In this document: positions 20,146 to 58,463 of the stretch, one piece after another
Position numbering within the stretch: position 1 is the stretch's first letter
Layout: each line of letters begins with the position of its first letter
NCBI RefSeq assembly: GCF_964340395.1
Contig: NC_135556.1
Location: forward strand, 11,125,410-11,189,409
Direction: 5' to 3'
DNA from: Glandiceps talaboti
Taxonomy: Eukaryota > Hemichordata > Enteropneusta > Spengelidae
Length of the DNA: 64,000 nt
Translations under genes and position numbers: made by a program
The notes under the pieces: generated by a model
Told to the model about the DNA's origin: nothing
Seen by the model: only the letters and a program-made list of their open reading frames with translations
Databases searched by the model: none

Positions 20146-21151
20146 CACTTTGTTAGAAAAAAGTAAGAAAAGAAGCACCATCGTCGTAAACCACACCCTC
20201 TTTTACGGCACCACTTTCGTTATTTCGCAGTTTCGCGGAAGAAATAACTGTTACAGCTCTGGTTTGAGAGAATATAACTTACAGATCTAAATATAGTCGT
20301 CTGTGTTGTCTTCTTTTTGTTCAGTATTATGCTGAGTTGGCATTTTTACTCGGGGAGAAATCAATAGCTATACACAATACAAAATATTAGCCTTTAATGG
20401 TGTAACTATTATCGTCAGCATCGTGTAAGATCTATAAATACAAGTAATACTAGTACTAGTAGTATTAGTAGAAGGAGAACGGAAACCATATCACGCAGAG
20501 AGTCGTTACCGACCTTAAAGAAAATCGTCCTTCTATGGTATAAATCTGAAAATCTGCATGAGCCATCATCAACAATGTTGATTCGTGGCCACTCTACTTT
20601 CACTAAAATTTACTCGAAATAAACAGGAGTTGCCGTGTCTTTGTTATAGCATTATTATTATCATACAAAACTATGAGTAGCCATTTCTCGAAAGGATGAG
20701 GGCGGGGGTGTCTCTTTTTATACAATATGAAAATTTGATAAACGTGCTCACAATTCACTAGTATAAACAAGAGCGTGATACCTTCATGCAGAGATGTACT
20801 TGGGATTCATGTGAACACTGAAATATTAAGTTTGAATGGTTTTATGTGGGGTGGGGGGGTGGGGGGTTGAATATATACATTAAGCCAATGCCGGGGCCAA
20901 TGTCGAAAATAATCGCAAAAAGTATTGATTGCTGAAATATTTTCCGTATTGGCCCTAGTTTCTGATTTAATTCCATTATACTGTTGACAGAATTTGATTT
21001 CTAAAAGAAATAAATTGGATTAAATTGAAATTAAAAATTGCAAAAAAAAATCATGCACACTAATGATGCGGGCGCGCAAGGGCATGGGCAAACCGTTTCG
21101 TGGAATTTTGTGTCACGTGATCGGCACCCATTATCCTTATTTCGCAATATA

Positions 21152-23368
21152 ATGGCTTCCAAAGAGGTGCAGTTTTTGAAGAAAATCAACGAAGATTTCC
21201 TTCACTGTGCAGTCTGTTCTGGTCGATACAAGAATGCTAAATGTCTTCCATGTCTACACAACTTCTGTGAATCTTGTTTAGTTAATCTTGTGGGTGAAGA
21301 CGGTGTCAACATTATCTGTCCGACATGCCGACGGAAGTACGAACTGCCCGAAAATGGCGTCACAGGTATTGCTGCCAATTTCTTTCTCGATCAGTTGGTA
21401 GAAATGTTCCAGAAAAGAGACGAAACATCCGATGAATCAAGTATATGTCAGGGTTGCAAGAAATACAAAAGTAGTATGCATTGCATTGAGTGTTCAAGTG
21501 ACATTTGTGAAAACTGTGTACTACCGCATAAAGAGCTCCCAGCTACACGTACACATCGCCTCGTTACGAGAGCTGAATACATAGCTGCGAAGTCCGATGA
21601 CCCCGCCTCGGTACAACCTCCATTGTACTGTACCCGACACCCAAACTACGAAGTGGAATTCTACTGTGAGAAGTGCGACTCAGCTATTTGTCTGAAGTGT
21701 ACAGCACTCGATCACCGCGGCCACGAATATGGTTGTATCAAAGATGCATCCGAAGTGTACACTGAATATTTGAGGGGCTTGATTGACAAAGTGAAAATGA
21801 AAGAAGCGGAAGCGAATGTCAGTAAACAGGCTGTACTCAACGTATCAGAATCGCTGGATGACTGTTATCTGAGAGAGGAAAAGAAAACGGAAGAACACAT
21901 CGAAAAGACCATAGATGAAATCACTCGGTTGAAGAAAGAAAACGGTGACAAACTTCTGAAAGAATTGAGAGACAAATACAATACCAGGAAAGTAAATCTA
22001 AATGCTCAAATGAAAGGATTGGAAATTGCCGAGAGTGATCTATCAAACACGATAGAGTACGCCGAAAATCTGTTACGTTATGGTAATGCTGCACAAGTGA
22101 TGTATGCTAAGAAAGGGGTGTCAACTCAGATGGATGAGCTACTGAAAGTAGAGACAACGACAGAGCCAACAGAGAATGAATACATGGAGTTCCAACCGTG
22201 CAATGACTTCTGTACAGACAAGAGTGTAGGGGCATTGCATACTGTAAAAATGACTTACAAGGTAACTGCTACACCGAAGTTTGTTCGAGTGAATGAAGAT
22301 ATTGCTATCACCATAGCAACTGAAACCATTACGCATAAAGTTATGTCTGCATCTGGTAGATTACAGGTTGATGCTGTAATGACGACACCAGATAAGAGCA
22401 CAGAGAAAGTAGAAGTTAATGACAATAAAGATGGAACATTGACTTTGAAAAGTCGTGGACAGGTGGAAGGTGAACATGAACTGTCAATATCAGTCCATAA
22501 GAAACCAGTAGAAGGGTCACCAGTCAGAGTTCAAGTTATTCCTAAGAAAGGGTTGGTGTCTAAGTTTGGGGTACCAGGGTCAGGGATAGGGCAGCTGAGT
22601 AATCCATTTGGTGTAACTCTGACCAGAAGGGGAAATGTTTTAGTGTCAGATAGTAGTAATTACAGATTGCAGACATTTAGTCAGGGTGGAAACCACCAAA
22701 GCATGTTTAAGTTTACAAATGTTGGAAATGACATTCTTCCAGCTGACACAGCCATTTCAGTTGATGGTAATATCTTTATCACAGACACGTCTAACAAACA
22801 GGTACTTGTCTGTGATGAAAATGGAAAGCTGATTTGTTGCTTTGGAAAGGGGAACTTTCAAAACCCTCTTGGTATTGCATTAAGTCCTGTCAATGGGAGG
22901 GTTTACATTGTTGATAATGGAGCTCACTGTATACTCATTTACTGCCAAGATGGTAATTATATCAAATCATTTGGTTGTCGTGGCAATAAAGATGGTGAGC
23001 TCCGTAATCCTGTGTTCCTCTGTATTGATGATAAAGGCAATGTCTACGTGGCAGATCAAAGTAATCACCGAATACAAGTGTTCAATGCTGATGGTCTCTT
23101 CCTATATTCATTTGGCAAACACGGAAGTGGTGATGGCCAGATGACTAATCCATACGGGGTGTGTCTTGACAAGTTTGGATATGTGTATGTCACAGACTAT
23201 GGTAATAGCAGAGTGTTGAAGTTTGAAGCTGGTGGGAAATTCATCAGTCGTGTTGATACCGGTGGTTTGAGTGTGCCATGGGGACTTTGTGTCACAAGTG
23301 ATGAACCATTCCCTCTGGTCATAGTTGCGGATAATGGAAATGATTGTGTTAAAGTTTTTGCACAATAA
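21152..23368 (+). CDS. TRIM-NHL protein A (RING, B-boxes, coiled coil, filamin, NHL)
   Basis: Intronless gene of 738 residues, a TRIM2/3/71-type (class VII) architecture, probably a cytosolic RING E3 ubiquitin ligase whose NHL propeller binds RNA or protein. Seen: a C3HC4 RING at residues 19-59 (CAVC, CLHNFC, CPTC); a first zinc-binding B-box at about 99-135; B-box 2 at about 160-196 (CTRHP, CEKC, CLKC, DHRGH); a Lys/Glu-rich coiled coil at about 205-345; a filamin/ABP280 Ig repeat at about 390-490 ending SPVRVQVI; and five to six NHL repeats from about 495 to the end (FGVPGSG, NHRIQVF, SRVLKF). The MASKEVQ start is chosen because the frame upstream is not conserved in copy B and B has no ATG there. 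The product is about 93% identical to copy B by eye. Confidence 0.93.
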   Translation: MASKEVQFLKKINEDFLHCAVCSGRYKNAKCLPCLHNFCESCLVNLVGEDGVNIICPTCRRKYELPENGVTGIAANFFLDQLVEMFQKRDETSDESSICQGCKKYKSSMHCIECSSDICENCVLPHKELPATRTHRLVTRAEYIAAKSDDPASVQPPLYCTRHPNYEVEFYCEKCDSAICLKCTALDHRGHEYGCIKDASEVYTEYLRGLIDKVKMKEAEANVSKQAVLNVSESLDDCYLREEKKTEEHIEKTIDEITRLKKENGDKLLKELRDKYNTRKVNLNAQMKGLEIAESDLSNTIEYAENLLRYGNAAQVMYAKKGVSTQMDELLKVETTTEPTENEYMEFQPCNDFCTDKSVGALHTVKMTYKVTATPKFVRVNEDIAITIATETITHKVMSASGRLQVDAVMTTPDKSTEKVEVNDNKDGTLTLKSRGQVEGEHELSISVHKKPVEGSPVRVQVIPKKGLVSKFGVPGSGIGQLSNPFGVTLTRRGNVLVSDSSNYRLQTFSQGGNHQSMFKFTNVGNDILPADTAISVDGNIFITDTSNKQVLVCDENGKLICCFGKGNFQNPLGIALSPVNGRVYIVDNGAHCILIYCQDGNYIKSFGCRGNKDGELRNPVFLCIDDKGNVYVADQSNHRIQVFNADGLFLYSFGKHGSGDGQMTNPYGVCLDKFGYVYVTDYGNSRVLKFEAGGKFISRVDTGGLSVPWGLCVTSDEPFPLVIVADNGNDCVKVFAQ

Positions 23369-29262: not shown

Positions 29263-29748
29263 TTTAGGCCAAGTGTAAAAAATAATCGCAAAAATTATTG
29301 ATTACTCAAATATTTTCCTATTAGTTAAACTATACATATGGCATTGAATCCGTGACATGAAAATCTCAAATAGAATATAGATATTCAGGCAAAATCTCCA
29401 TAATTGTTTTCTAAATACCTTGATACATTTGGTAAATTTCATCCATTTTTTTTTCAAAAATCGAACATGAATGTACACAAGACAAGTAAATTTTCGAAAA
29501 CTGAGATAAAACCCTCAATCTCATTGGCGCTGTTGGTTTGTTTAATTCCATTATACTGTTCACAGAAGTTTGATTTCTAACAGAATAAATTGGATTAAAT
29601 TTAAATTATAAATTGTAAATTTTCAAAAAATCGTGCACACTGCTGTACTGGGCGGTGCGGATGCCATCAATCACGCAAGAGCAAACCATTTCGTAGAATT
29701 TTGTGTCACGTGATCAACACCCGTGACCCTAAGTTATTTCGCAACAGA

Positions 29749-31959
29749 ATGGCTTCCAAAGAAGTGCAGTTTTTGAAGAAAATCAACGAAGATTTCCTTC
29801 ACTGTACAATCTGTTCTGGTCGATACAAGAATGCTAAATGTCTTCCATGTCTACACAACTTCTGTGAATCTTGTTTAGTTAAGCTTGTAGGGGAAGACGG
29901 TGTCAGCATTATCTGTCCGACGTGCCGGCGGAAGTATGAACTGCCCGAAAATGGCGTCACAGGTATTGCTGCCAATTTCTTTCTCGATCAGTTGGTAGAA
30001 ATGTTCCAGAAAAGAGACGAAACATCCGATGAATCAAGTATATGTCAAGGTTGCAAGAAATACAAAAGCAGCATGCATTGCATTGAGTGTTCTACTGATA
30101 TTTGTGAAAACTGTGTACTACCGCATAAAGAGCTCCCAGCTACACGTACACATCGCGTCGTTACTAGAGCTGAATACACAGCTGCGAAGTCCGATGACCC
30201 CGCCTCGGTACAACCTCCATTGTACTGTACCCGACACCCAAACTACGAAGTCGAATTCTACTGTGAGAAGTGCGACTCAGCTATTTGTCTGAAGTGTACA
30301 GCACTCGATCACCGCGGCCACGAATATGGTTGTATCAAAGATGCATGCAAAGTGTACACTGAATATTTGAGGGGCTTGATTGACAAAGTGAAAATGAAAG
30401 AAGCGGAAGCGAATGTCAGTAAACAGGCCGTACGTAACGTATCAGAATCGCTGGAGGACTGTTATCTGAGGGAGGAAAGGAAAACGAAAGAACACATCGA
30501 AAAGACCATAGATGAAATCACTCGTTTGATAAAAGAAAACGGCGACAAACTTCTGAAAGAATTGAGAGACGAATACAATACCAGGAAAGTAAATCTAAAT
30601 GCTCAAATAAAAGGATTGGAAATTGCTGAGAGTGATCTATCAAACACGATAGAGTACACGGAAAATCTGTTACGTTATGGTAATGCTGCACAAGTGATGT
30701 ATGCTAAGAAAGGGGTGTCAACTCAGATGGATGAGCTACTGAAAGTAGAGACAACGACAGAGCCAACAGAGAACGACTATATGGAGTTCCAACCGTGTAA
30801 TGACTTCTGTAGAGATAAGAGTGTAGGGGCATTGAATAATGTAATGACTTACAAGGTAACTGCTACACCGAAGTTCGTTCGAGTGGATGAAGATATTGTT
30901 ATCACCATAGCAACCGAAAGCACTAAGCATAAAGTGATGTCTGCGTCTGGTAGATTAGAGGTTGATGCTGTAATGACGACACCAGATAAGAGCACAGAGA
31001 AAGTAGAAGTTAATGACAATAAAGATGGAACATTGACTTTGAAAAGTCGTGGACAGGTGGAAGGTGAACATGAACTGTCGGTGTCAGTCCATAAGAAACC
31101 AGTAGAAGGTTCACCAGTCAGAATTCAAGTTATTCGTAAGAAAGGGTTGGTGTCTAAGTTTGGGATTAAAGGGTCAGGGATAGGGCAGCTTAATAAACCA
31201 TGTGGTGTCACCCTGACCAGGGGAAATGTTTTAGTGTCAGATAGTAGTAATCACAGATTGCAGACATTTAGTCAGGGTGGAAACACCCAAAGCGTCTTTA
31301 AGTTTACAAATGTTGGAAATAAAATTCTTCCAGCTGACACAGCCATTTCAGTTGATGGCAATACCTTTATCACAGACGCGGCCAACAATCAGGTACTTGT
31401 CTGTGATGAAAATGGAAAGCTGAGTCATTGCTTTGGAAAGGGGCAATTCCAAAACCCTATTGGTATTGCATTAAGTGCTGTCAATGGGAGGGTTTACATT
31501 GTTGATAATAGAGCTCACTGTATTCTCATATACTGTCAAGATGGTAATTATATCAACTCATTTGGTTGTTATGGCAGCAAAGATGGTGAGCTCCATAATC
31601 CTGTGTTCCTCTGTATTGATGATAAAGGTAACATTTACGTGGCAGATCAATATAATCACCGAATACAAGTTTTCAATGCTGATGGTCTCTTCCTATATTC
31701 ATTTGGCAACCGAGGAAGTGGTGATGGTCAAATGAATAGGCCATTTGGGGTGTGTTGTGACAAGGTTGGCTACGTGTATGTCGCAGACCATGGTAATAGC
31801 AGAGTGTTGAAGTTTGAAGCTGGCGGGAAATTCGTCAGTCGTGTTGATACTGGTGGTTTGAGTGGGCCATGGGGGCTTTGTGTCACAAGTGATGAACCAT
31901 TCCCTCGGGTCATAGTTGCAAATACTGGAAATGATTGTGTTAAAATTTGTGCACAATAA
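29749..31959 (+). CDS. TRIM-NHL protein B (RING, B-boxes, coiled coil, filamin, NHL)
   Basis: Intronless tandem duplicate of the gene at 21152, 736 residues, same domain order: RING at 19-59 (CTIC, CLHNFC, CPTC), two B-boxes to about 196 (CQGC, CEKC, CLKC, DHRGH), coiled coil, filamin repeat at about 390-488, NHL repeats to the end (FGIKGSG, NHRIQVF, SRVLKF). All RING and B-box zinc ligands are kept, so both copies look functional. Two single-codon differences in length exist (in the linker before the filamin repeat and in the first NHL repeat). Substitutions are spread throughout. Role inferred from family: RING E3 ligase with an NHL substrate- or RNA-binding platform. MASKEVQ start as for copy A. 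Confidence 0.93.
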   Translation: MASKEVQFLKKINEDFLHCTICSGRYKNAKCLPCLHNFCESCLVKLVGEDGVSIICPTCRRKYELPENGVTGIAANFFLDQLVEMFQKRDETSDESSICQGCKKYKSSMHCIECSTDICENCVLPHKELPATRTHRVVTRAEYTAAKSDDPASVQPPLYCTRHPNYEVEFYCEKCDSAICLKCTALDHRGHEYGCIKDACKVYTEYLRGLIDKVKMKEAEANVSKQAVRNVSESLEDCYLREERKTKEHIEKTIDEITRLIKENGDKLLKELRDEYNTRKVNLNAQIKGLEIAESDLSNTIEYTENLLRYGNAAQVMYAKKGVSTQMDELLKVETTTEPTENDYMEFQPCNDFCRDKSVGALNNVMTYKVTATPKFVRVDEDIVITIATESTKHKVMSASGRLEVDAVMTTPDKSTEKVEVNDNKDGTLTLKSRGQVEGEHELSVSVHKKPVEGSPVRIQVIRKKGLVSKFGIKGSGIGQLNKPCGVTLTRGNVLVSDSSNHRLQTFSQGGNTQSVFKFTNVGNKILPADTAISVDGNTFITDAANNQVLVCDENGKLSHCFGKGQFQNPIGIALSAVNGRVYIVDNRAHCILIYCQDGNYINSFGCYGSKDGELHNPVFLCIDDKGNIYVADQYNHRIQVFNADGLFLYSFGNRGSGDGQMNRPFGVCCDKVGYVYVADHGNSRVLKFEAGGKFVSRVDTGGLSGPWGLCVTSDEPFPRVIVANTGNDCVKICAQ

Positions 31960-39133: not shown

Positions 39134-39291
39134 AATCTCCCGGTATTTCTCATTCTTGCTACGTCATCTCGGACTCATGATTCCCCTATGTCTGTAGCCC
39201 TCCTTGCCTATCGACTCGGAGGGATACGGCCGACTTGAGGGGAATCATTCGTCCTCGATGACGTAGCACTCATTCGGAATACCGGGAGGTT
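39134..39291. mobile_element. Hairpin MITE with TAAYCTCCCGGTATT ends
   Basis: The tips TAATCTCCCGGTATT and AATACCGGGAGGTTA pair, and inner blocks GCTACGTCATC / GATGACGTAGC and GATTCCCCT / AGGGGAATC continue the palindrome. It ends 128 bp before the initiation codon of the sphingomyelinase-like gene, so it may lie in its 5' UTR or promoter. Confidence 0.75.
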
Positions 39292-39418
39292 ACATTCTAC
39301 TAGGACGTTAACTTGTTTGCATCGAAGTGATTGTGTACATGTCATTTCTATAATTTTGCAGGTAGACATCTCGTACTTCGTACTTACTGTGATCACGGAA
39401 ACAACAAAAGGCGTTGTC

Positions 39419-40194
39419 ATGGAAACAACAAAGGGCGTTTTCCTTCTTGGGACGGTGCTCTGTGTGCTTTTCCCAGTAATCTGTTGTAAGTCTACTAAGC
39501 TTATAAATAACTCTCATCAAATTGACACTTTATATTTGGTAATGGTGGTGTGAGGGCTATAGAGGTGACCTTGATCAATGTCGATGTAAGGTTAGATTAC
39601 TCTAATTGGTTTTGGGGATTAATCCCAATAAAGTTCTACGAAATGAAATATTCAGTGTAATTCAAAAGCATCAGAGAATGAGCAGAATTTACGGCGGGGG
39701 CAGTCGATACAATATTTTGGTCAATTTTTTTTCGCAGCCCCTCCGCACCTCCTTACAAAATGCTCTAAAAAATTCATGCCCCCTCCAGAAAAAAATAAAT
39801 CCAAGAATACCCATCCCTCTGGATATCCCCCAGATATCAAATAGTTAAACCCAAATCATTGTTCTCAACAACAACCCCCCTCACACATACCCCCCCACAC
39901 ACACATACCCCCCCCACACACACACATACCCCCACACACATAACCCCCCCCCCCACACACACACACATATCCCCGCGACCAACCTCTAAACATGAAATGT
40001 TTCTTTCTGTGCCTTTTGTCAACAATACCAGATGTACTCACAAGACTTTGTTAAAATTCCTTTTTTTTCATTTACAGATTCTCATTCATGTGAGAGTGGA
40101 AAACCACAAGTTGAATTAGGTAAGCACAATTGATGTACTATATATCGATATCATCATAATAACGATATATGTAACCAAGTCACCTTCTTTTTTC

Positions 40195-40288
<94 letters not shown>

Positions 40289-42222
40289 AGGGTAGAAGAA
40301 AATCAAGTAGGTTTTTTTCGTCTCTGCAAGCCTGTTTCGTGAGTAAATCACTCGTCAGGAGATGCTGATGTACTGAATATACTAGTACCTCGTATAAACC
40401 GTGTGGTGTAAGGCGGGTTTTACCTAGGGTGTTGAGTGGTGCTTTTGAAGTTTGTACAAAAGGTGTTAATAAGTTATGGCGGTGTGCGATGGGGTCAGGT
40501 GTTACACAACAATGTTTTATTTCTATGACGACAAGAGGATACAAGTTCATTTCGTTTGTTTAATGTAGATAGTTCGGGTCGGCAGATAATAAAGAACTTT
40601 TCTTTGAGGCATAAATTGCACTTCTTGCTTGAGCTATTGTAGGTTGGATTGGATGAAAATGGTCGCCAGGAAATGGAGTGGTCGATGTTTTTATCCTTGA
40701 GGGTCCAGATATGTTTGCTGAGTTCCGTAGAGTTCCTGTGTTTAGTGTATGCTGTATGGTTTCTATACCTTGTCTTAAACTCGTTTTCTGTAAACCCAAT
40801 GTATGTTTCTGTATTGTCGTTGTCCTTGCGTGTGACGGCTGCTTGGTAGATGACGGATCGCTGTAGACAGTTTTCGTTGAGCGGGCATGTTTTCTTTTGC
40901 CGACAGTTGCATGTTTTACTGACATTGGTGCTGTTTACGGTGGTGTTGGTGCGTTCGTGTGAAATAAGGATGCGTTTGTTGTGGTTGTCGATGACGTGCT
41001 TGATGTTATTCATGCAGCTGTAACTGATTTTAAGGGTGTTGCGGTTGAAGATTTTTCTGAGTTTATGATCTTTGTGGAAGTGTTTATCTATAAGGCTGAG
41101 GAATCTGTGTCCGGTGTTGGTGCTAACATTTTTGCTGAATGGGGGTTGTACCATAGTATGTCTTTCCGTTGTCTGTTTCTTCGTCTAGAGGTCGTAGTCG
41201 GCTCGTAGTGTAGTGTGTATTTGTATCCGCTCTCGTTGAGTGCTTTTTGGTATGGAGGCGCGGCTTGGTCGAAGGATGCTTTGTCCGAAGAGTGTTCTTT
41301 GTCGTGATTTGTGGGTAGTTGCTCTCTCGATGTACATATTGTAGGATGGTGTCAGGCTTTGTGTAGGACCGGTACGTACCGTTGCTCAAGTTGAGGGTGA
41401 CATCTAAAAAGTTGATCATCTGTTTGTTGGCTTCTATTGTAATGCGTAATCCGTTGAGGTGGAAAATGCAGCATATGTTTTTCTTGATGTTTTCTGTGTC
41501 TCTTGGTGATGTGTTCGAAACGGCTAATCCGTCATCTCTGTATTAGCCTATGTTGATACCGGGGCCTTGTAGTTGGGAGAGGAGGAAGCTTCCTACCAGC
41601 TCGCATGTTTCGGCACCATCATAGCTGCCCATTGTTACGTCGAATGTTGTGTTGCCTTTCTTTTCCCAGGGTTGTTGTTTATGTATAAGGACAGAGTTCT
41701 TGGCATGGAGGATGATGTTACGTTCGTCGGCTGTGATGTTGTCGTAGTCTGAGGCGAAAGTCAGTGCTCTGTTGAGGAGGTTTTGGCTGATTGATGGGTA
41801 GAATTCTACAACATCGAAGCTGATGAAGTTGTGGGCTTGTTTGTTTTCGACGGCTTTAAACCATTCGATTACTGATGCTGTGTTCTTCCATTGGTTGAAC
41901 TTTGTCGAATTTAGAATTTTGGTGTTGATTCGATCGAGTATTTGTTTACTGATTTTGCCTATCTCGGATTTTGTGGGGTTGATAAATCGGCAGGTAGGTT
42001 TGTTGGTAAAATTCGGTTTGTGGTCTTTGAGTGTCACGAATGCTTCTTTGTATGCTGTAGTATCTACTCTGTCGTCGAAGCGTAGTTTCGTTGTGATCTT
42101 TTTGTTTTCTCTATGGATTGCTTGTGTGGTGTTGGGTTGTGCGTGTTTGTAGGATTTTGTGACGTTTTGTTGTAGGAGGTCGTTGTATGTTTTGGGTTTA
42201 AGTTTGTAGTAGTTTGTCGTCT

Positions 42223-42305
<83 letters not shown>

Positions 42306-45300
42306 TTTTGATGTTGCTTATGATTCACACTCTACATTCTCTTCCGAATAGGTGATGCCTTACCAGAATGTGATCTCGACGAATCTTACTGTGGCAAGTT
42401 TGGACTAGACTTCGTCTGTACTGAAACTTACAGATTCAGGCACCCATGCAAAGACAGAGGCCAAAATGTCATTTGCTCCTCCCCTGACAAAAATCTAGCT
42501 CCAGCAACACCGGCTACAACTTTGAAAGTGTTGGCATACAATGTTTGGGAGCGTGGGTATACGTATTACCAGAATGGTCAACATGAGCGAACCTGTCGTA
42601 TCCCACAGCAAATCTTTGACCTGTATGGTGACCTTGACGTCATTGTGTTTAATGAAGCCTTCATGGGTGGATGCTTTCCCTACGATGGTGTATCATTCCG
42701 CGACATGTTGACTCAATATGGATTTGAACATTTCACAAAGACACTAGGCGAAGAAGATAGAGAAGATACCCAGAATGGTGGTGTCTTTATCGCGTCTCGA
42801 TGGCCAATAGTGAAAGAGAGTGAAAGAATATACAAAAATGCTGCTCAGCCTTCTCCGGATAACGTGTCCGACAAGGGATTGGTGTACGCAAAAATCGAAA
42901 AGGAGACAAATTCTGGAAAAAGAATATATCACATCCTGGGAACTCATATGCTGGCTGGATTGCATGGTGATGAGGGAGTTAAAATACGAGCTCTTCAAGC
43001 CAAAGAAATGCGGATGTTCGTGGAAGAACAAAACATAACAGCGGAAGAGCCAGTTATCTATGCCGGTGATTTAAATACAGATCTCCATGGCACAGATCGA
43101 AGATGGGAACAGATGTTAGAAATCTTCCAGGCAAATATGCCGGGTATTGTCGGAGACCTCAATGTGACCATAGACTATGAAAACAATGACGTCAGGGTAA
43201 GTCCAGAGGATGGAGGAAAGTGGCTAGATTATGTCATCTATAGCAACCAGCATTTGATGCCGAACAACGCAAGCCAAGAATCTATCAAATTCGTGGATGA
43301 AAATCCATTTGAAGTTTGTATTCAACCTTTGCCAACTCAAGAACCCTGTCAGTTGGCCATGAATATAACAGACCTTGCCGAACATTATGCAGTGTTAGGT
43401 CGTTTTGATTTCTCCTCTGCAGTTTTGGATCCTGTTGAATACCCAACTCCAGAACCTATACCAGGTAGGCCTATGTAAATATAATGTAATGAAATGTTAT
43501 GTTATGTTATGTTATGTTATGTTATGTTATGTTATGTTATGTTATGTTATGTTATGTTATGTTATGTTGTGTTATGTTATGCTATGTTCTGTCATGTCAT
43601 GTCATGTCATGTTATTATGTTATGTTATGTTATGTTATGTTATGTTATGTTATGTTATGTTATGTTATTATGCTATGTTATGTTATGTTGTGTTATGTTA
43701 TGCTATGTTCTGTCATGTCGTGTCATGTCATGTTATTATGTTATGTTATGTTATGTTATGTTATGTTATGTTATGTTATGTTATGTTATGTTATGCTATG
43801 CTATGCTATGCTATGCTATGCTATTTGTTTGCTAAAGTGTCCTACGTGGACAATGACATAGAAATAGCCACATCCAGCCCACTGGCTAATATTAATAAGC
43901 CACAAAGTATACAAGATAAAATAAATAGTGTCACATGTCTCAAATATACATTAGCATCATTGACAAAATAACAAAAATTGTGTGACTACAAGTCCTTTGT
44001 GGTTTTAATAACAATATATTCATTAAAATAAGCTTTGACAAGGTTTTTTCTTTAAGAGGTCTATCAGAAAACACTGAATATTTAGTGACTGTGTTATTGA
44101 CAGTTCAATCCTTTCTATTTATTCCAATAGAGGAATGTACTAATGATGTACCGAAAGTATGGCTGGGTAAGTCAAATCATAACATAAATCATCGCACTGT
44201 CTTCAGTTTTAAAACCTTACATGTAATTATACTATATATATGCTACCTAGATCTAGACTACCTTTAGACGTGTAGGACCATAAACCCTACCCTACCCGTG
44301 TAGGGTCTAGTGTAGAACTAAACGTAGACTGTAAGATACGTCGTGACGTTTCGCCCGGCCTCCTCTGTTAGGGGTTGGCCGATGTGTGAGGGCGCCCCGT
44401 CACGGTGTACCTTACAGACTATAGACTAAACGCTACAACACTATTTCCGCTATCTATCTATAAACATACATTTTGATTTTTTTTTTTGAATTTTTGTTGG
44501 ACGAGCGAAAATTCAAAAAATGAAAATGTCAGTTAGGATAGCGGAAATAGTGTTGTAGCGTTTGGTCCTACACGTCTGCAGGTAGGCTATATACTATCTT
44601 CGGGACTTGAATACTATAAACCTAGATATTTTCGCCGCGAAAAAATTTTGTCATCTATAAGAGTCATCAGCTATCTCAAAGACTAATTTTTACTTCCATA
44701 CCAGACTGTAACATTGTGTTCATGTACGAGAAGGCAATCTAGTCACTACTTAATTTTGCATTTTTTGCCAAAAATAAGTCTGTATGGAAAATCTTCAAAA
44801 TTACATTATTTTTCCACACTCGTAGAAATACTGCGTGGAGTATCACGTAATATCAAGCACGGTGGCTTCACTGTGATGGAATTCTAAGAGTTAGCAGTTA
44901 TGCACTTACAGAACTATATAAAACATATGTAGACATGAAAACGTATTCAAATCATACACTGACTTTTATTTAACGTATATTTTATTCGTTTACTTGATAT
45001 ATATTGCTTCATAGGATATGCCACCAATGAGTGTGACTTGACACCCAAATATTGTGAGATGTTCGGACTAGAAGAAGTTTGTACGGCAAGTTACAAGACG
45101 TGGGATTTATGTCATGTAAGGGCTGGTAAAAATGTCCTCTGCGCTGTACCAAAGATCACGTTACCTCGTCCAACACCAGCCACTACATTTAAGGTAATAA
45201 TAACAATGGTTTATCATATGTCTTACTCAATGTATCCAGCCCTTACACTGTTCGATGGTTTGAAAAAGGTTCATTTGGCACAATTAATTGGCAACGGCCA

Positions 45301-47381
45301 TCTCAGGTTCGAAATATTATAGTATATTATTATGTTCATTGTCAACGTCTTGGAGAGTCAGAAGGAAGCTAAATCCATAAAGGCAACCGAAATTGTACCC
45401 GTGTGCGCATGTCAATCGTGATTGCATCGTATATGCTTGTTTGGACATAGACCCTATGTTTGAACAATCTTTCATTGCGCACTTCTTGCAGTTTCAGCCA
45501 GTAACTCAATAGTCAATTTTCCGGTTCCAAGATGCATTGCGCGAGATGATGTCGCTTATGTTGTTAGATTTCATTTTACTCTTGTTTTGTCTTTATTGTA
45601 TTTGAAATAACATTTTCATCAGGAAATGATGGTAAGACATGTTGACCTCTTTAATTAGGGGTGTGATTTTATAGAACAAAAACTGAACGTCATCGATGAC
45701 AGATTGGGTTTTACGGGTAAACCCAGGGTACCGTCATGTGACAACCATCCCCTGAGTAGCGCGTGCAAACCCCTCTGCGCGTACGCGTATAATACATGGC
45801 ATTGTATGGGGACACGCGCAATGCATCTTGGAACCGGCAATAGGTCTATTCAATCTCTGTTCAATTTTTGCTGGTAGAAATAGGAATGCCTGTTATTGCA
45901 AATGAGAGTACAATCTATTATAACTATAAAATGGTCAAAATAATGACTTTTTATACATCTTCCCCTGAAATATATTGAGTACTTTGCTGTTTATATAAAT
46001 ATGTGAGGGGACATGCCCAGACTAGCTGTAAGCTATTTCCCTACTTCCCATTTACATGAATTATCCAGTGTTATATTTATTAGGTGTAAATATACTGATT
46101 ACGTATTGATGTATATTGGAAACAAACGACTACATTCACCTATGTGACTGCCTTCTTTCTGAAATGACCGGTAACATGTTCGTACAGAGTTTATGTGGAC
46201 CTTGTGTATGACATCATAATTTTAGTATAAAAAATATCACTGGGTACCATAACACATACCCCCCCCCCCCCTCACCCAAACATTCGACGATATCATGTAA
46301 TTCATGTCTTTTCTGTGATTTCACATTGAAGGTACTTACCTACAACGTGTACGAGTTACGATATCTCTACTACCAAAGTGGTCAACGCGAACGAACATGC
46401 AGAATTCTAACTCAGATCTTTACTCGCCATGGAGATGTCGATGCTATCGTCTTCCAAGAGGCTATTATGGGTGGCTGCTTTCCTGACGATGGGGCATCCT
46501 TTCGTGATATCATGACTTATTATGGTTTTAAATATTTTACCGGTACTCTTGGAGAAGACCTCATGCGCCTACTCCCCCCTCCGTACACTTATGAGAATGG
46601 TGGCGTCTTCATAGCTTCACGTTGGCCAATACTTAGTTGGGATGAAACTGTGTATGAAAGTAAAGTTGCCATCTCCTATGATGCAATGGCAGCCAAAGGG
46701 GCTATTTATGCAGAGATCGAGAAATCAGTTGGCGGCAAGACGAGAAAATATCATGTTCTTGGTACTCATTTACAGGCTGATCATGATGATCTCGGTGACG
46801 AAGTTCGGTTCAACCAAACTGTCGAGATGCATGCACTGATGCTTAAACAGAATGTCCCCAAAGATGAAGCAGTGATTTACGGTGGAGATTTTAATACTGA
46901 TTTTAACTCGAAACCAGTAAAATTTCAGGCCATGTTAGAGGCAATGGAGGCCAAACTTCCTCAAAAAGTAGGAAACATCAATTGTACCAGTGATAAGTGT
47001 TTCAACGACATCAATAAGAACGACTTTGACCCGGACTGCAACGAAGAACGCGACTGGTTGCCAGGCATATGGCTTGATTACGTCCTGTATAGCTACTCAC
47101 ATCAAGTACCGGTCAAATCCAGCCTAGAAGCCATAAAGTACGTTGACGAACCTAAATTCACCGTATGCATGGATCATATCATCGAACCTTTTGGCGGTCA
47201 CTTGTATCCGTATTCAGACAGATGCATTATGCCGAACAACATTTCGGATTTATCCGATCACTACGCTGTCCTCGGTACATTTGAGTATTCGGTGGTGGAA
47301 GACGTACCATCATCTCCAGCAATGAGACATTCCTCCTTGTTTTCGGTAGTTGCTGTTTTCCTGCCAATCATATTTTCTTGA
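39419..47381 (+). CDS. Two-module secreted sphingomyelinase-like phosphodiesterase, GPI-anchor candidate
   Basis: Six exons join in frame: 39419-39485, 40078-40119, 42352-43464, 44131-44166, 45015-45193 and 46332-47381, 828 residues in all. Every junction is GT-AG and phases agree. Exon 1 encodes a signal peptide ([18 protein letters not shown]). Each module has a short phase 1-1 exon, a Cys-rich segment ([20 protein letters not shown]) and a catalytic domain of the endonuclease/exonuclease/phosphatase fold resembling bacterial and secreted neutral sphingomyelinases. The C-terminus ends in a hydrophobic run ([14 protein letters not shown]) after small residues, typical of GPI attachment. Predicted role: hydrolysis of sphingomyelin or a related phosphodiester at the cell surface. 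Substrate is inferred from the family only. The two modules clearly arose by internal duplication. A two-gene reading is less likely because the linking exon phases fit and no start, stop or signal peptide separates them. Confidence 0.8.
40195..40287. repeat. (TA)n tract, left side of Penelope-like element
   Basis: About 45 uninterrupted TA units, directly adjoining the 3' end of the minus-strand retroelement. Confidence 0.97.
40288..42222 (-). mobile_element. Penelope-like retroelement, 5'-truncated, in intron 2
   Basis: On the minus strand a reverse-transcriptase region (about 41550-42220; motifs [33 protein letters not shown]) is followed by a C-terminal GIY-YIG endonuclease region (about 40500-41150; [19 protein letters not shown]). 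RT plus GIY-YIG is the hallmark of Penelope-like elements. The start of the protein is missing and the copy looks broken, with a few breaks, so it is not expected to be active. It sits between two (TA)n tracts, suggesting insertion into a TA microsatellite. Confidence 0.9.
40318..40370 (-). ncRNA. Hammerhead-ribozyme-like motif in the Penelope tail
   Basis: The minus strand reads CTGACGA, then a 4-bp stem (GTGA...TCAC) closing a five-base loop, then GAAAC, followed by AGGCTTG. That is the conserved hammerhead core with stem II, and the short stem III loop typical of motifs known from Penelope-like elements. CATCTC before the core and GAGACG after stem III could form stem I. This old copy may no longer cleave. 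Confidence 0.55.
42223..42303. repeat. (TA)n tract, right side of Penelope-like element
   Basis: About 40 TA units. It ends only 48 bases before the exon 3 boundary at 42352. Confidence 0.97.
42352..43464 (+). CDS. Exon 3: first sphingomyelinase-like module
   Basis: One 1113-nt exon carries both the Cys-rich segment and the whole catalytic domain, with no intron between TLK and VLAYN, where module 2 has one. Motifs in order: AYNVWE (metal-binding Asn), FNEAF (Glu), [17 protein letters not shown] (His), YAGDLNTD (Asp and Asn), WLDYVIYS, and [10 protein letters not shown]. The last normally reads DH in this family (SDHYPV in bacterial enzymes). Here an Glu precedes the His, so activity may be altered. 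The exon ends in phase 1 at CCAG|GTAGGC, directly followed by a long pentanucleotide tract. Confidence 0.85.
43492..43824. repeat. (TTATG)n pentanucleotide array in intron 3
   Basis: More than 60 TTATG units with variant blocks (TCATG, CTATG, TTGTG). One block containing TGTTCTGTCATGTC occurs twice about 120 bp apart, a sign of segmental growth of the array. It starts 27 bases after the exon 3 donor. The long Cys/Tyr/Met-rich open frames are artefacts. Confidence 0.95.
44267..44578. mobile_element. Larger palindromic element hosting a nested MITE, intron 4
   Basis: The outer tips AGACGTGTAGGACC and GGTCCTACACGTCT are exact reverse complements. Inner arms AACGCTACAACACTATTTCC and its complement at 44535-44560 continue the palindrome. 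The left arm is interrupted between GGACC and AACGCTAC by about 145 bp that include the nested family-P hairpin at 44326-44420. The outer element is therefore older than the inner one. Confidence 0.7.
44326..44420. mobile_element. Family P palindromic MITE, copy 2 (nested)
   Basis: Tips AGACTGTAAGATACGTCGTG and (reverse complement of the right end) AGTCTGTAAGGTACACCGTG, with GTGAGGGCGCCCC on the right arm. It is flanked by ACTAAACG on both sides (44317-44324 and 44425-44432), an 8-11 bp target duplication. Confidence 0.7.
45508..45850. mobile_element. Inverted-repeat MITE in intron 5
   Basis: CCGGTTCCAAGATGCATTGC near 45522 pairs with GCAATGCATCTTGGAACCGG near 45815. Outer CAATAG / CTATT blocks extend the arms. 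The interior is non-coding. Exact ends are unresolved. Confidence 0.6.
46332..47381 (+). CDS. Exon 6: second sphingomyelinase-like module and C-terminal anchor
   Basis: This 1050-nt terminal exon begins after TTGAAG at VLTYNVYE, in phase 0. All family catalytic motifs are intact: TYNVYE (Asn), FQEAI (Glu), [20 protein letters not shown] (His), YGGDFNTDF (Asp/Asn), WLDYVLYS and [10 protein letters not shown] (Asp-His). An extra Cys-containing loop ([17 protein letters not shown]) is absent from module 1. The tail after [13 protein letters not shown] is hydrophobic to the stop, consistent with GPI attachment. Its Cys-rich partner is exon 5 (45015-45193). Confidence 0.85.
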   Translation, partial: VLTYNVYELRYLYYQSGQRERTCRILTQIFTRHGDVDAIVFQEAIMGGCFPDDGASFRDIMTYYGFKYFTGTLGEDLMRLLPPPYTYENGGVFIASRWPILSWDETVYESKVAISYDAMAAKGAIYAEIEKSVGGKTRKYHVLGTHLQADHDDLGDEVRFNQTVEMHALMLKQNVPKDEAVIYGGDFNTDFNSKPVKFQAMLEAMEAKLPQKVGNINCTSDKCFNDINKNDFDPDCNEERDWLPGIWLDYVLYSYSHQVPVKSSLEAIKYVDEPKFTVCMDHIIEPFGGHLYPYSDRCIMPNNISDLSDHYAVLGTFEYSVVEDVPSSPAMRHSSLFSVVAVFLPIIFS

Positions 47382-50320: not shown

Positions 50321-50505
50321 ATGAAGACATATTGTAAATTGCTGGTGATTTTGATGGCAGCCACTGTTATCATTCTGGTAAGGTTTTGACGTTCTTCAAG
50401 TTGTACTTTACAAAGCACAGGCACTGTTTCAGCAATAATCGCGATCACGTGATATAGCCACAACGAATTCATGTTCACTAATATCATCATCATAGTAGTA
50501 GTAGC

Positions 50506-50546
<41 letters not shown>

Positions 50547-51500
50547 ATGCATTCATATCTTCAAATCCTAACATTATATTTCAGATTAAAGAGATTGGAT
50601 TGAGCACAGATTTGACTAAAAAAAGAACAGCATCGGTTCAGCAGTCGTCCCGACCCGATATGATTATGTCGCCCTCAACGACAAAACCCAGTCATCAAAG
50701 AGAATCTGGTTTGCCAACAGATGTTTACGAAATCGTCACTTTCCGTCCGGATGACAGAGATTACATCATGGACAAACCAGTTTCGACACACAATTTCACT
50801 AATCCAAATATGACAAGATTTAAACTGTCGAGAAATGACACTATCTACGAAGGGCAGATATTTATTGTGAACATTGAAACTTTCAATAGTTGGGGCGTGC
50901 AGAAGACAACGGGTGGAGATCTTTGGTTTGCTGCCATGTATGATATCGACCATAAAATGAACACAGCAGGACATGTGATAGATCATCAAAATGGGACGTA
51001 TAGTGTGTATTTCTACGCAGCTTGGCCAGGAATCGCACACATAGACATTACTCTGGTGTATACAAGTCAGGCCATAAAGTGGCTGTACAACCTGTGGAAT
51101 ATTCCAAATCGCATTGTATGGAAAGGAATCTACTCCCAAAACACAAACGATTCGAATTCATACAGCGAAGCTCGATGTCAGATAGGGAAGATGCCAACAC
51201 AACGCGGTGAAAGTAAGTGTGGATACAACCATGAAAGTGCTCTTGGGGATATTGGTTTTGTGTGTGAAACGTCATCAAATTGTGACGAGTTGGCCATGAC
51301 TCAAGGAAACATAACGTGGTTGAATGAAAAAGCAGAACTGTTGGTCGGAGAAAATAATGAATACTTTAAAAGGTAAGCTGACAACTCTGTACTTTTTAAA
51401 CTATGTGTCTGTTGGCTCTTTACTCATGCTTTCCAGTCTCTCTCTCTACGTGTCTCTGTGTCTCTGTCTCTGTGTGTCTCTGTCTCTCTCTGTCTCTGTC

Positions 51501-51571
<71 letters not shown>

Positions 51572-52956
51572 ATCTATCTCTCTCTCTCTATTATATTTTC
51601 TGCCTCAATATTAATGAATTACTTTTCTTTTTCAATTACAGTGAATACCTAATGCAGAGAATAGAGAATGGACCAACTTTCATTCAAATCAAAGGTAAAT
51701 TAGTGTATAAATATTATCGGTAGGCTAGTGAAGGATTAAATCTTCATACACGTGACATTACTATGACAGTATCAGCTCCATGGATTCTGACAGATGAAGA
51801 GTAGCCCGGATACTTGGATATGTCATTCACCAGAACTGACAGTAGAATGTGTCAAATAGTCAGTTCTCTGGGCTGGACGAAATGATAATCTTAGTTGTTA
51901 TTGTGAGAGTTGTGTTAGTCCATGGTCTGTAAGGTACACCGTGACGGGGCGCCCTCACACATCGGTCAAGCGGCCGGTGAGGGCGGAACGACACGGCATA
52001 TATTGCAGTCTGTGCTTGTTGTTCAAGTGTTGATTTTAAGACATCAAGCTGTGTTCAATTTAGATTATTATAATTTGTCTCTAGCAACGATGTTTCGTCT
52101 TTCGTTGTTAGGAAAATTTTTATAACGTATCTGAATAATTAATCAAGATTTGTGTGTTTACCATCCAGCCAACCGAGGAAGAAAAAATTATGAAGACTTC
52201 TTACGTCCTTGCACGCCAGAATGCAAAAGACCAATCGTGTCAGGCTATTGGATTGACGACACCTGGCAGTCATTAATATGTAAATTACACAGGTGGGAGA
52301 AGCAGCCAATGAGAGACGTCAAAGAGTGTTTGAGTCATAAAGATATGTACTTCCTGGGGGACTCCACAACGAGGCAGTTTTCAAACGTAGTTGTCGAACT
52401 GGTCGGTATGGGAGGGTTGTTAAGGAAACGACATGCCGCGAGGACATATCGCCGAGTTGAAGACGAGGAATATAATATATCGTTCACTTTCCAACATCAT
52501 CCCTGGGCAGTCGGCGGAAGTCCGTATCCGATCGGAGAAGTGAAATTCGAATCTGAAGTTATTGATAGTTTACAAAACTCACAGTGCAATTACGTCATCC
52601 TGGTTGGGCCATATGCGCACTATACGTCATGGACAAGAGATAATTATATCAAAAGACTCCGACTCCTCAGAGAATCCCTTGTACGTTTCAAACAGAGGTG
52701 TCCTGATGCTAAGGTCTTCATTAAAGGTAGCAAACCACGTGATCACGCTGTCTTCATTTCATATATACACAGTAATGACTTCTTTCTTTATGAAATGAAC
52801 AAATTAATGAAGCAGATTTTTGACGGTTTAGGTGCGATATTCCTTGATGTATGGGACATGAATCTGTCATACCCAGCACCGAACAATATCCATATGCCGA
52901 TGGAAGTTATCCGTCAGGAAGCTAATTTATTTCTGTCCTACATTTGTAAACTTTAG
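50321..52956 (+). CDS. NXPE family protein A (neurexophilin-like plus PC-esterase domain)
   Basis: Four exons: 50321-50377, 50585-51372, 51642-51694 and 52148-52956, phases 0, 2 and 1, 568 residues. Exon 1 encodes a short cytosolic end and a type II signal anchor (LLVILMAATVIIL), typical of Golgi enzymes. Exon 2 carries the neurexophilin-like beta-sandwich (WFAAMYD, DHQNGTYSVYFYAAWPG). Exon 4 carries the PC-esterase (SGNH-like) domain, with the nucleophile motif GDSTTRQ (Ser about 372) and the C-terminal WDM...NNIH (Asp about 536, His about 548). All catalytic positions are present, so activity is plausible. Vertebrate NXPE1 has been linked to sialic-acid O-acetylation; the acceptor here is unknown. 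The exon 4 acceptor (AATCAAG) has a poor pyrimidine tract but is the one that keeps frame with exon 3. Confidence 0.85.
50504..50546. repeat. (CAA)n microsatellite, NXPE A intron 1
   Basis: About 14 units in the intron just before exon 2. It produces an artefactual poly-Thr/poly-Val open frame. Confidence 0.95.
51438..51590. repeat. (TCTG)n/(TC)n microsatellite, NXPE A intron 2
   Basis: Pyrimidine-rich CTCTGT passing into about 18 TCTG units and back to TC, 50 bases upstream of exon 3. Confidence 0.95.
51925..52010. mobile_element. Family P palindromic MITE, copy 3, NXPE A intron 3
   Basis: GTCTGTAAGGTACACCGTGA on the left pairs imperfectly with the right end (reverse complement GACTGCAATATATGCCGTGT). 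GCGCCCTCAC / GTGAGGGCGG are the inner arms. The target duplication is unclear. Confidence 0.65.
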
Positions 52957-55013: not shown

Positions 55014-58000
55014 GGTTATACTGTATCATCTGATCAATCAGCCATCGAAGACATCACAACCAATAGATTTCTACCCGATCAAATGTACTAATAGAACTCA
55101 TTTAATCGTTAGTCCAAGCTTCAGTTGTGTATTGCTAACCTGATAGCGTTTTGTCAACTCTAAGGCTTGGCACAGTTTTTGTAACTTTAATTTGAGTGAA
55201 GTTATGTTGTGACCATCCAGATTCCAAATGTGACGAGACAATAAACAAAAATTTTTTCAAACATCTAAACTAATTGTGGTTATATTTCAGGTAAGGTCAC
55301 TTGGAACATCAGGTGGGCCTACAATTGTGCACCCAATGGTACAAAGTCAACAAACGCATGCGCAATATAAGATGGAAGAAACAAAAGAAATTATTGACAA
55401 TGCACAAGTTAACGAGTTAATTCCAGTAATGTCTGCGGACAAAACCCCTGATTCAGAACTGGATCCAACACGGACAGTCGTGGAAATGGTAGCAAGAGGG
55501 GATGACGTAAATGTTGTTGATGATGATGACGACGACATTGATGACGATGTCTGGGATGAGTTCGATGAAACACTAGACACGTCAAATCCAACGAATATCG
55601 AAAAAAGTGTTGTAAGACTGCTACAGGACCCCGAAGATGTACACCTGTACGACACACTACACGTTGTCATAGAAACACGTGATGTAAATAACAAACCACG
55701 AACTCACGGTTCCGATTTCTGGTATGCTATTATGTATAATGAGTTACAGAAAACACGAATCGCGGGACGTGTCTTAGATCACCACAACGGTACATATAGT
55801 GTATACTTTTACGCTACGTGGACCGGCTATGCTTTCATAGACATTACCTTGGTTCATATCGGAAAGGCCACGCAATGGTTACGTGAAGTGTACTGGCCCA
55901 AAGAAAATAAAATTTTCTGGACTGGTCATTTCCGAGAAGAAGAACGAATGGAGCAGACTCATTGTGTACAGAGCGAAGATAGTACAACATCAGACGGGAT
56001 GTGTTACTATGGAAACCCGTCCGCACTGGGAAGCACATCATTTGTATGTCGTCAACCTCCAACTCTGCCGTGCCATGCTCTTTACTCTACCGATGTCAAT
56101 TTTACATCTATGGTTGAAAGTGCAAAAGATCTGGTGAAAGGGAAAGAAGATTGGTTTTCAAGGTAGTACGCATTTATGTAGGGAGCCTTCAGTAATTACG
56201 TATACAAGGGGAGGTCCAGGGAATTCAGGTCAGAATATGACCATCCTCGATTCCTGCGAGCAAAAAAGCGGCCCACCCTCAATTTCCTTTCTCTAAATCT
56301 AGACTCATTGGGATGTAGAACTGGTGACAGTGATGGGATGCTAAAATCACAAAATAAAGCAAAGTTAGACAATACAATGAGTCAAAGTAAAATGTTACTC
56401 TCCCCTAATGACATATCCTAAAATATGGCCCTCCCCCGTAAAAAGTGGCCCTCCCCCTTGTAAATTAATACTGAAGGCACCCTCAAAGCATATTCAAGGA
56501 CACGTATTTAGTAGCGGTAGGTAGTTCATCACCAAGCGGCACGAAAGCACGCCCTCGTGCGGTCGAAGATGATTCAGCGCTACATTCGTCTTTGTCGACA
56601 GCTTTATTTACATTAGATTTTGAACAATATACTTGTTGAGCAGTGGGACCGATTCATTGTCATCAAACTATAAATATCACAGCTTATCAGTTAGTATTCT
56701 TGCCAGTAAAGATGAACACTTCATATTACCCAAATTTTTTCGCGTAAATTTCTACGTCGACGACCATGAACTATGCGTTCTTGATTATGACATTGTCTAT
56801 CAAAGCATAGACCCTACACCAGTCTATGATCAAAGTGGGGTCTATGATCAAAGTGACCAGTTTATGTTAGAGACATTTCATGTCATTGATAATATTTTCA
56901 CTATTTTTCTTCTCAGTTCCTCTGTGATGGTTGAGTCCCGTGACGTTGTAATTGTCAAGGTCAAAGGTAAATACTGATAGGTAATTTGATATTTGTTTCA
57001 AGAAACTCACGAAAGATAAAACAAGAAAACATGACTTAGGAGGACACACGAGAAAGAAGAAGAGACAAATAAACTTATATGAACGCATTAATAGAAAATT
57101 TACTCTGACAATATTCCCTCCAAATGTAAATTTGCATTTCCTTACGTATGTTTAAAATACCTTTCGCTCACAGCCTTGAAAAGCCTGGTGTAAAATGGTT
57201 CATTCTGCGTAAAAAGGCATGTCCCTATCAAGCTGATTAAAATCTGGTGTCACAGTAGGAATATTCCCCGGGGAATGTTCTCGATTCCTTTTATTTACCT
57301 TTTATTTCCTAAGAATGCTGTCAGTTGTTTTCGATTTTGCCATTCCCCGGGAGTGACAGCCTTTCCAAACGAAAAGAAAGAGGAAGTATACAAAGGAAAC
57401 AGAAGTAAATACAGCGATCAAGCCGTATGCCCATATCAGATTTTAATCGGATTGGTTTTCTGTCGAACACTACTTTCTCAAAAAGAGACTGATACGATAC
57501 AAAGTGTCTCATTCAAATTTTTCAACATTTGATGTTAACGTGAAGGCAACAGTTCGGGCATTTATTTCAAGTATATTTGAACAAACTGTAGAATACTTTT
57601 CTCTCATCCCAAAAGTAATATTTAGCGATATCGGCATAGCTAATAAATATTGACAATCATCCATTTCTTTCTCTACAGACATCAAAAGAACGGACCACGG
57701 GTTGGAACGCCCAAAGTGTAACGAAGTTGCGCCGCAGAGTGGTCGACAATTTCCTGGTTACTGGATGGACAGTCAGTGGACTTCATTGCTTTGTGATGTA
57801 CAATCATGGCAGAAAACACCCCTCAATACCATACGAGGTTGTCTACAAAACAAACAAATTTACCTTCTCGGTGATTCAATGAAGCAATTTTATGAAGCCC
57901 TCTTAGAATTGGCTGGTTTGTTAAATTCACGGTCTCACAGACCCACGCATCATGATAACGTTCTTACAGACAAGACCAACTTCACTCTGTTCTCACCGCC

Positions 58001-58463
58001 ATGGCCAACTGAAAGCTTGCCGGTTAAAGTCAGCGATACCAAATATGAAACTGGCGTCATTGATGAGTTGGATGACGTAGCATGCAATTATGTCATCATC
58101 ATTAGCTCTTACACGTACTTTCTGCAGTGGCCACTTAAAAACTATGAAGCTAGGATGAAACTGATCAAGGAGGCATTACTTCGCCTGAGAGGGCGCTGTC
58201 CCAATACGGCCATCGTGATTAAGGGAACTAAACCAAATGAACACTTTGAGCCACTGTCGCATGTATTTAAAAGTGATTATATTTTATTTGAAATGAACAA
58301 TTTGTTAAAGAAAATGTTCCAGGACAGTGGATTTTACTTTTTGGACGTTTGGGACATGAATCTGAGCTACCCTGCTCCACATAGAGCTGCCATGCCAGTA
58401 CCACTAATTCGCCAAGAAGTTGCTATATTCCTGTCATACATGTGTCCGGTTACATTAAGTTAG
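54201..58463 (+). CDS. NXPE family protein B, PC-esterase signature degenerate
   Basis: Four exons: 54201-54284, 55291-56162, 56917-56966 and 57679-58463, phases 0, 2 and 1 exactly as in NXPE A, 596 residues. Exon 1 gives a basic cytosolic stub and a type II anchor (YVFIAVSIVLLLYL). Exon 2 starts with a longer, acidic linker (DDDDDIDDDVWDEFDE) before the neurexophilin-like domain (WYAIMYN, DHHNGTYSVYFYATWTG). The exon 4 nucleophile motif is GDSMKQF (Ser about 402), lacking the Arg seen in A. The C-terminal motif is WDMNLSYPAPHRAAMP, in which the position of A's catalytic His is Ala; a His two or three residues earlier is the only candidate substitute. It may be a pseudoenzyme or have altered chemistry. 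It arose by tandem duplication with NXPE A. Confidence 0.85.
54736..54845. mobile_element. Hairpin MITE in NXPE B intron 1
   Basis: Central arms GGGTTTCGACACGTCTT and AAGACGTGTCGAAACCC are exact complements around CAGTGGGAG. Outer blocks GGATTTGTACGCTG / CAGCGTATAAATC and ATCTGTATTA / TTAATATCTGTAT extend the palindrome. Confidence 0.7.
54931..55009. repeat. (CA)n microsatellite, NXPE B intron 1
   Basis: About 39 CA units, nearly uninterrupted. Confidence 0.97.
56181..56482. mobile_element. Inverted-repeat MITE in NXPE B intron 2
   Basis: Left tip GGGAGCCTTCAGTAATTA and right tip (reverse complement) GGGTGCCTTCAGTATTAATT, followed by CAAGGGGGAGG-type blocks on both arms. It starts 18 bases after the exon 2 donor. 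Confidence 0.65.

Follow-up and report, generated by a model that had tools for sequence, protein, structure and literature searches.

The window analysed here is a 64,000-nucleotide stretch of the Glandiceps talaboti genome (assembly GCF_964340395.1, contig NC_135556.1, positions 11,125,410 to 11,189,409 of the forward strand). It contains, between positions 39419 and 47381 of the plus strand, a gene that probably encodes a secreted protein with two tandem modules resembling bacterial sphingomyelinase (SMase) C.

Structure of the gene and its product

The gene was rebuilt from six plus-strand exons in a single frame of 828 codons followed by a stop, with introns that are all GT...AG and have phases 1-1-1-1-0. 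Exon 1 (39419..39485) carries the start codon and a predicted signal peptide, 22 residues in all, and ends in phase 1. Exon 2 (40078..40119) is a short phase 1-1 exon of 14 residues at the head of module 1, whose Cys-rich segment, catalytic domain and Pro-rich linker all lie in exon 3 (42352..43464). Between the modules stands another short phase 1-1 exon, exon 4 (44131..44166, 12 residues); its acceptor is uncertain, since 44104-44166 is an open phase 1-1 exon too. Exon 5 (45015..45193) holds the Cys-rich segment of module 2 and ends in phase 0, and exon 6 (46332..47381) holds catalytic domain 2, a hydrophobic C-terminal tail of the glycosylphosphatidylinositol (GPI) type and the stop codon. 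If the exon 3 donor were left unused, reading on through 43465..43478 would add the residues GRPM before a stop. Because this stop and two poly(A)-like signals (43920 and 44022) come after exon 3, an isoform that ends at 43478, single-headed and soluble, is possible.

Alignment of module 1 with module 2 revealed 182 identical residues over 391 aligned positions (47%, E = 4e-117). Within conserved codons, 18 of 59 fourfold sites were identical, about the level of saturation, and codon positions 1 and 2 were 62% and 70% identical. Saturated fourfold sites together with constrained first and second positions point to an old duplication of which both copies have been kept as protein. Hydropathy of the 828-residue product peaked (15-residue mean above 1.6) at residues 3-27 and 812-828 only, with no sign of another membrane span by this measure, and by eye the small residues PSSPA precede the C-terminal tail. 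Judged in this way, by hydropathy and by eye, the protein displays the sequence features of a GPI-anchored ectoprotein, namely an N-terminal signal peptide, a C-terminal hydrophobic tail and small residues. An earlier sequence-only reading of this DNA had predicted six exons of compatible phases, an 828-residue protein, a signal peptide and a GPI-type tail, all of which were recovered. It had also proposed that both modules repeat one pattern; the order of short phase 1-1 exon, Cys-rich segment and catalytic domain is indeed shared, but the exon layouts differ, the Cys-rich and catalytic parts being joined in a single exon in module 1 and split by the phase-0 intron in module 2.

A 24-nt tandem duplication over the start codon (39393-39439) places a second copy of the METTKG coding stretch in the 5′ leader. 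On the minus strand of intron 2 (40498-42331), the open frames 40498-41184 and 41546-42331 resemble, by eye, a Penelope-like element with its GIY-YIG and reverse transcriptase parts; Pfam returned no match for these two frames. This candidate element is flanked by (TA)44.5 at 40198-40286 and (TA)39.5 at 42225-42303. Intron 3, between the modules, contains a 67-copy ATGTT array (43494-43824). Fold-back stretches resembling miniature inverted-repeat transposable elements were seen by eye at about 39150-39300, upstream of exon 1, and at 44240-44600 in intron 4, unconfirmed by the inverted-repeat list, which TA tracts filled.

Homology and active sites of the two modules

The sole Pfam family found in the protein at or above cut-off was Exo_endo_phos (PF03372; 2.9e-15, two stretches), with three weaker matches below it, and the catalytic domains thus belong to the EEP (Exo_endo_phos) or DNase I type. 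The best Protein Data Bank (PDB) match was a bacterial sphingomyelinase C both for module 1 (E 2.3e-25) and for module 2 (E 4.4e-17), whereas human nSMase2 (5uvg) compared with the single modules gave E values of 0.18 and 0.49. A profile of 17 modules of the family matched 2uyr at 9.3e-40 and 5uvg at 5.9e-6. All eight PDB matches of this profile are named sphingomyelinases or beta-hemolysin; SMPD2 is absent among them, and the modules were no closer to SMPD2/3 than to bacterial SMase C. The NCBIfam scan covered 17 of the 20 modules of the tree described below (L030_m2, L034_m1 and L035_m1 were omitted, m1 and m2 denoting the first and second module of a locus, and module 2 of the window was entered as exon 6 only); TIGR03395, sphingomyelin phosphodiesterase, was the only match in 17 of 17. 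As judged from these comparisons, the two modules are homologues of bacterial sphingomyelinase C and much less similar to human neutral SMase, and the label 'sphingomyelinase-like' that they had been given earlier is correct.

Other comparisons of the modules returned little. The C-terminal 67 residues of module 1 had no PDB match, and the module matched one PHROGs family, of unknown function. No close viral relatives were found in viral contigs, and no close prokaryotic relatives in genome contigs searched with two short peptide patterns only, a weak test of recent horizontal transfer.

The alignment to Listeria SmcL (1zwx) includes the D-H with which the active site ends. Seven positions are invariant in all 20 modules: N, E, H, D, N, the Asp of W(L/I)DY and the final His. 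In passages of PMC9710629, the key residues of the Bacillus cereus SMase are given as N16, E53, His151, N197 and His296. The residue before the final His is Asp in 18 of the 20 modules. We take D195 and D295 of the B. cereus enzyme to be its remaining central metal or catalytic positions. All central metal and catalytic residues are present in module 2 of the window, and all except the Asp before the last His in module 1. The same passages assign a membrane-binding role to the Trp-Phe hairpin of bacterial SMases (PMC9710629). By sequence alignment only, the stretch from the WLDYV motif to the final (D/E)HYAV lacks Trp in both window modules; the stretch equivalent to the hairpin is flanked by two invariant cysteines. 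Altogether nine Cys columns are retained in 19 or 20 of the 20 modules, and each short exon of the window gene adds one further Cys.

Paralogues and the choice between one gene and two

A genome search with exon 6 as sole query gave 26 matches, from which the paralogues were listed. On contig C9 (chromosome 9), the order module 1-module 2 is repeated in a cluster at 17.78-17.84 Mb and at a locus at 16.20 Mb. Eight further C9 loci (L029-L036) carry a module 1, nine with the window; no further copies lie within 100 kb on either side of the window, and there is no local tandem array. In nine of nine loci a phase-1 GTA donor follows the Pro-rich linker at the identical place, the end of exon 3, and behind it stands a counterpart of exon 4, a phase 1-1 exon of 36 nt (39 in L032) with the form C...P..WL. 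Module 2 is present in seven of the eight further loci, and its phase-1 acceptor occupies the matching place in all eight second modules, the window's included. An exon like exon 2 was seen in seven of the nine loci, again counting the window. A METTK signal-peptide exon precedes both exon 2 and module 1 in the window as well as in L030 and L033, the exons of the latter two being homologous to exon 1, and L030 reproduces the full six-exon layout, with the METTK signal-peptide exon, exon 2 and an intron inside module 2 at the position that separates exons 5 and 6.

All seven intact second modules (window, L029, L030, L031, L032, L035 and L036) end in a hydrophobic tail, with a best 14-residue hydropathy of 2.57-2.88 in six loci, and no first module has a hydrophobic tail before its donor. 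In contrast, an own tail was found in three of the four single-module paralogues, which are located on contigs C5 and C11 (two genes in L037, and L038 and L039) and are 36-46% identical to the window modules. Two of these tails belong to L037 and one to L039; no hydrophobic tail was found in the exon of L038. At L037, on C5, the two single-headed genes are adjacent and each has its own tail, and this pair is, by its predicted structure, what two separate genes should look like.

Within the window, no candidate for a signal-peptide exon was found between the modules, either in 43465-44131 or in the whole gap, by a scan that recovered exon 1. As 10 of 57 control stretches contained such a candidate, this absence is mild evidence alone. 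The exon 2 motif recurred in two overlapping short-exon candidates, running from 44104 or 44131 to 44166, and in 0 of 50 control stretches, the motif having been picked after the exon was seen. A permissive scan of the inter-module regions of the nine loci yielded one candidate, in L031, which lies downstream of the inter-module exon of that locus and has no similarity to METTK.

A maximum-likelihood tree was computed from 20 modules, L034 module 2 being omitted, and carried a long-branch warning among the single-module rows. All seven second modules fell into one group (100/100), and the 16 tandem modules were split from the four single ones (100/100). Over seven loci, distances among first modules and among second modules correlated with r = 0.873, a value equalled or exceeded in 16 of 5040 permutations, and the distance from module 1 to module 2 was 0.470 for pairs of the same locus and 0.479 for other pairs. 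Agreeing distances and same-locus pairs that are hardly closer than others suggest one ancient internal duplication before the locus multiplied, and give no strong indication that the heads exchanged sequence. Ratios of nonsynonymous to synonymous substitution (dN/dS) among paralogues were 0.11-0.21 in 11 of 12 pairs; the remaining pair, module 1 of the window and of L032, gave 0.05 with a saturated dS. By these ratios, both modules are under purifying selection.

All in all, the paralogues in the same genome answer the main doubt about this locus, whether it consists of two separate genes. The proposal that it is one gene was supported: no candidate signal exon was found between the modules of the window, the donor, short exon and acceptor recur in paralogues, and the tails follow module 2. 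The best reading, in line with the predicted gene structures, is a single gene whose product carries a signal peptide, two SMase-like modules and a GPI-type tail. That this gene yields an ectoenzyme with two tandem SMase C-type heads and a hydrophobic GPI-type tail after head 2 only is, in our view, probable.

Several observations weigh against this reading. The architecture of the window gene was read from genomic DNA alone. The TIGR03395 scores, 114.4 bits for module 1 and 91.3 bits for exon 6 of module 2, lie under the curated cut-off of 248.2 bits, and an AlphaFold2 (AF2) model of the two window modules had a mean predicted local distance difference test (pLDDT) score of 41, too poor to use. 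In window module 1 a Glu replaces the Asp before the last catalytic His; the edge metal site has Q in place of Glu in module 1 and I in place of Phe in module 2, and its Asp is N in 17 of the 20 modules. The nine first modules form two supported groups, and their union in a single module 1 clade is neither shown nor rejected (approximately unbiased test, p-AU 0.46). Not every locus is complete: module 2 of L034 (L034:2476-3698) is frameshifted, by pseudogenization or an assembly error, and L033 (C9:17788700-17791200), taken with L040, has a signal peptide, a module 1 and the inter-module exon, with no module 2 ahead of the next gene's own signal-peptide exon. L033 would then be a truncated copy or a one-headed form. 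With a hydropathy of 1.44, the module 2 tail of L031 is weak. When the module 1 frame is continued beyond its donor into the intron, values of 1.74 (L031) and 1.36 (L030) are attained, so that these two loci do not contrast cleanly with the weak tail of L031. Finally, the METTK exon was recovered in three of the seven loci with more than 2 kb of upstream sequence (window, L030 and L033), less than 1 kb having been examined for L029 and L035. Among the other four, L034 and L036 have a phase-1 exon that looks like a signal exon but differs in sequence; the candidates in L031 are repeat-like only, and L032 has none.

Three other explanations have to be weighed with these points in mind. Two adjacent single-headed genes would result if the first did not use the exon 3 donor and ran on to the stop at 43478, four codons past it, and the second had an unseen start before 45015. 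The poly(A)-like signals, the side-by-side genes of L037 and the permissive candidate of L031 could all be accommodated by such an arrangement. It does not, however, account for a donor and an inter-module exon conserved in nine of nine loci, nor for a module 2 acceptor conserved in eight of eight; the lack of a hydrophobic tail before the donor in every first module, the position of the METTK exon upstream of module 1 only and, mildly, the lack of an inter-module signal exon in the window also speak against it. We consider two genes very improbable. A quite different possibility is that head 1 is a pseudoenzyme, either decaying or regulatory, and that only head 2 works, as the Glu and the edge-site Gln of module 1 might indicate. 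Its remaining catalytic and central metal residues are nevertheless intact, the Asp is kept in the other eight module 1 copies, and dN/dS was 0.05-0.21 in the three module 1 pairs that include the window. Moreover, in L031 it is module 2 (L031:3260-4459) that departs, the residue before the last His being Asn instead of Asp, and thus neither head is consistently degraded. Head 1 of the window may be weaker owing to its Asp to Glu change, and the second head of L031 is possibly weakened by its Asn and its weak tail; a head 1 without enzymatic function we regard as rather unlikely.

One two-headed protein might also act on another substrate, such as ceramide phosphoethanolamine or a glycan modified with phosphorylcholine or phosphoethanolamine. 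PMC10704324 describes an EEP-superfamily enzyme, clustering near sphingomyelinases, that strips phosphocholine and phosphoethanolamine from N-acetylglucosamine (GlcNAc), and the absence of the membrane-binding hairpin from the alignment would fit with a change of this kind. Against it stand the NCBIfam result, sphingomyelin phosphodiesterase alone in 17 of 17 modules, and the names of the eight PDB matches of the family profile. Furthermore, according to passages of PMC9710629, the metagenomic enzymes M-SMase2 and M-SMase5, in which the hairpin is absent or its apex replaced, kept sphingomyelinase activity. A different substrate is accordingly judged unlikely, and the tethered, double-headed SMase C-type ectoenzyme is retained in what follows.

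Elsewhere in the window, two similar TRIM-NHL genes (21035-23368 and 29605-31959, plus strand) each consist of one open frame with RING, B-box, filamin and NHL repeats. Downstream of the SMase gene lie two NXPE-like genes (50453-52956 and 55234-58463, plus strand), with a neurexophilin-type domain followed by an NXPE4_C domain.

Known enzymes, possible mechanism and origin

To our knowledge, known sphingomyelinases have a single catalytic domain. With the bacterial neutral SMase C enzymes (B. cereus 2ddr/2uyr, Listeria SmcL 1zwx, Staphylococcus aureus beta-hemolysin 3i41, Streptomyces 7cne; TIGR03395), the window protein shares the EEP superfamily, the catalytic N, E, H, D-x-N and final D-H as aligned to 1zwx, and secretion, which is predicted here. 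It differs from them in having two heads per chain, a Cys-rich segment and a short Cys-bearing exon added to each head, a Cys-bounded loop instead of the Trp-Phe hairpin, a GPI-type tail, introns and scores below the TIGR03395 cut-off. Because neither the cut-off nor the hairpin feature is matched, we do not place the gene in TIGR03395, although its product would be expected to work like a member. The single-module paralogues L037, L038 and L039 have the same Cys-rich and catalytic module, but one per gene.

SMPD2 and SMPD3 are single-headed and intracellular-facing. ENPP7, which is transmembrane, and SMPDL3B, which is GPI-anchored, are ecto-sphingomyelinases, that is, membrane-tethered, outward-facing phosphodiesterases, of other folds and families and with one catalytic domain. 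SMPD2 and SMPD3 belong to the same superfamily as the window modules and have a similar Mg2+ site (PMC10682184), but their similarity to the modules is weak, as the 5uvg comparisons above showed. Tick IsSMase, termed a venomous-spider ortholog and on that account presumably of the SMase D type, is of another family. The Glycera venom SMases are grouped among acid sphingomyelinases (PMC4202326). An oyster ceramide study includes one neutral sphingomyelinase, with no domain detail (PMC3517309). Among the literature matches listed, no two-domain, GPI-anchored or animal bacterial-type SMase C was found, though database entries may exist.

The simplest path to the present gene would start from a single-headed, tailed ancestor like the C5 and C11 paralogues. 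The module bounded by phase 1-1 would have been duplicated once inside the gene, the first copy would then have lost its tail, and the two-headed gene would have multiplied on chromosome 9.

As for its mode of action, the exons would be spliced into one transcript and the protein secreted, with disulphides formed by the conserved cysteines. The C-terminal tail would be exchanged for a GPI anchor, so that both heads are held at the outer leaflet, where each, with the help of two histidines and a divalent metal, might cleave sphingomyelin or a closely related sphingolipid bearing phosphocholine or phosphoethanolamine, releasing ceramide and the phospho-head group. The tether may stand in for the aromatic hairpin that bacterial enzymes insert into membranes, and having two heads could provide avidity or widen the substrate range. 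We put forward tentatively, and with less than even confidence, the wider view that these genes form a lineage-specific family of GPI-tethered, double-headed SMase C enzymes that arose by one internal duplication and has at least seven intact two-module loci, in which the heads are separately constrained, the active and edge metal sites are drifting apart and labour in outer-leaflet sphingolipid processing is divided.

In its secreted form, SMase C is familiar chiefly as an enzyme with which bacteria damage membranes. The family described here shows the same enzyme type in an animal genome, doubled in one chain and apparently tied to the cell's own surface. This opens the question of what two heads on one tether are for: they might bring avidity on membranes, serve two substrates, or divide catalysis and binding between them. 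The family also shows, step by step, how a double-headed gene could have arisen from a single-headed one with a tail. SMPD and ENPP7 enzymes are sources of ceramide in animals, and the protein described here may be a possible further source at the outer leaflet.

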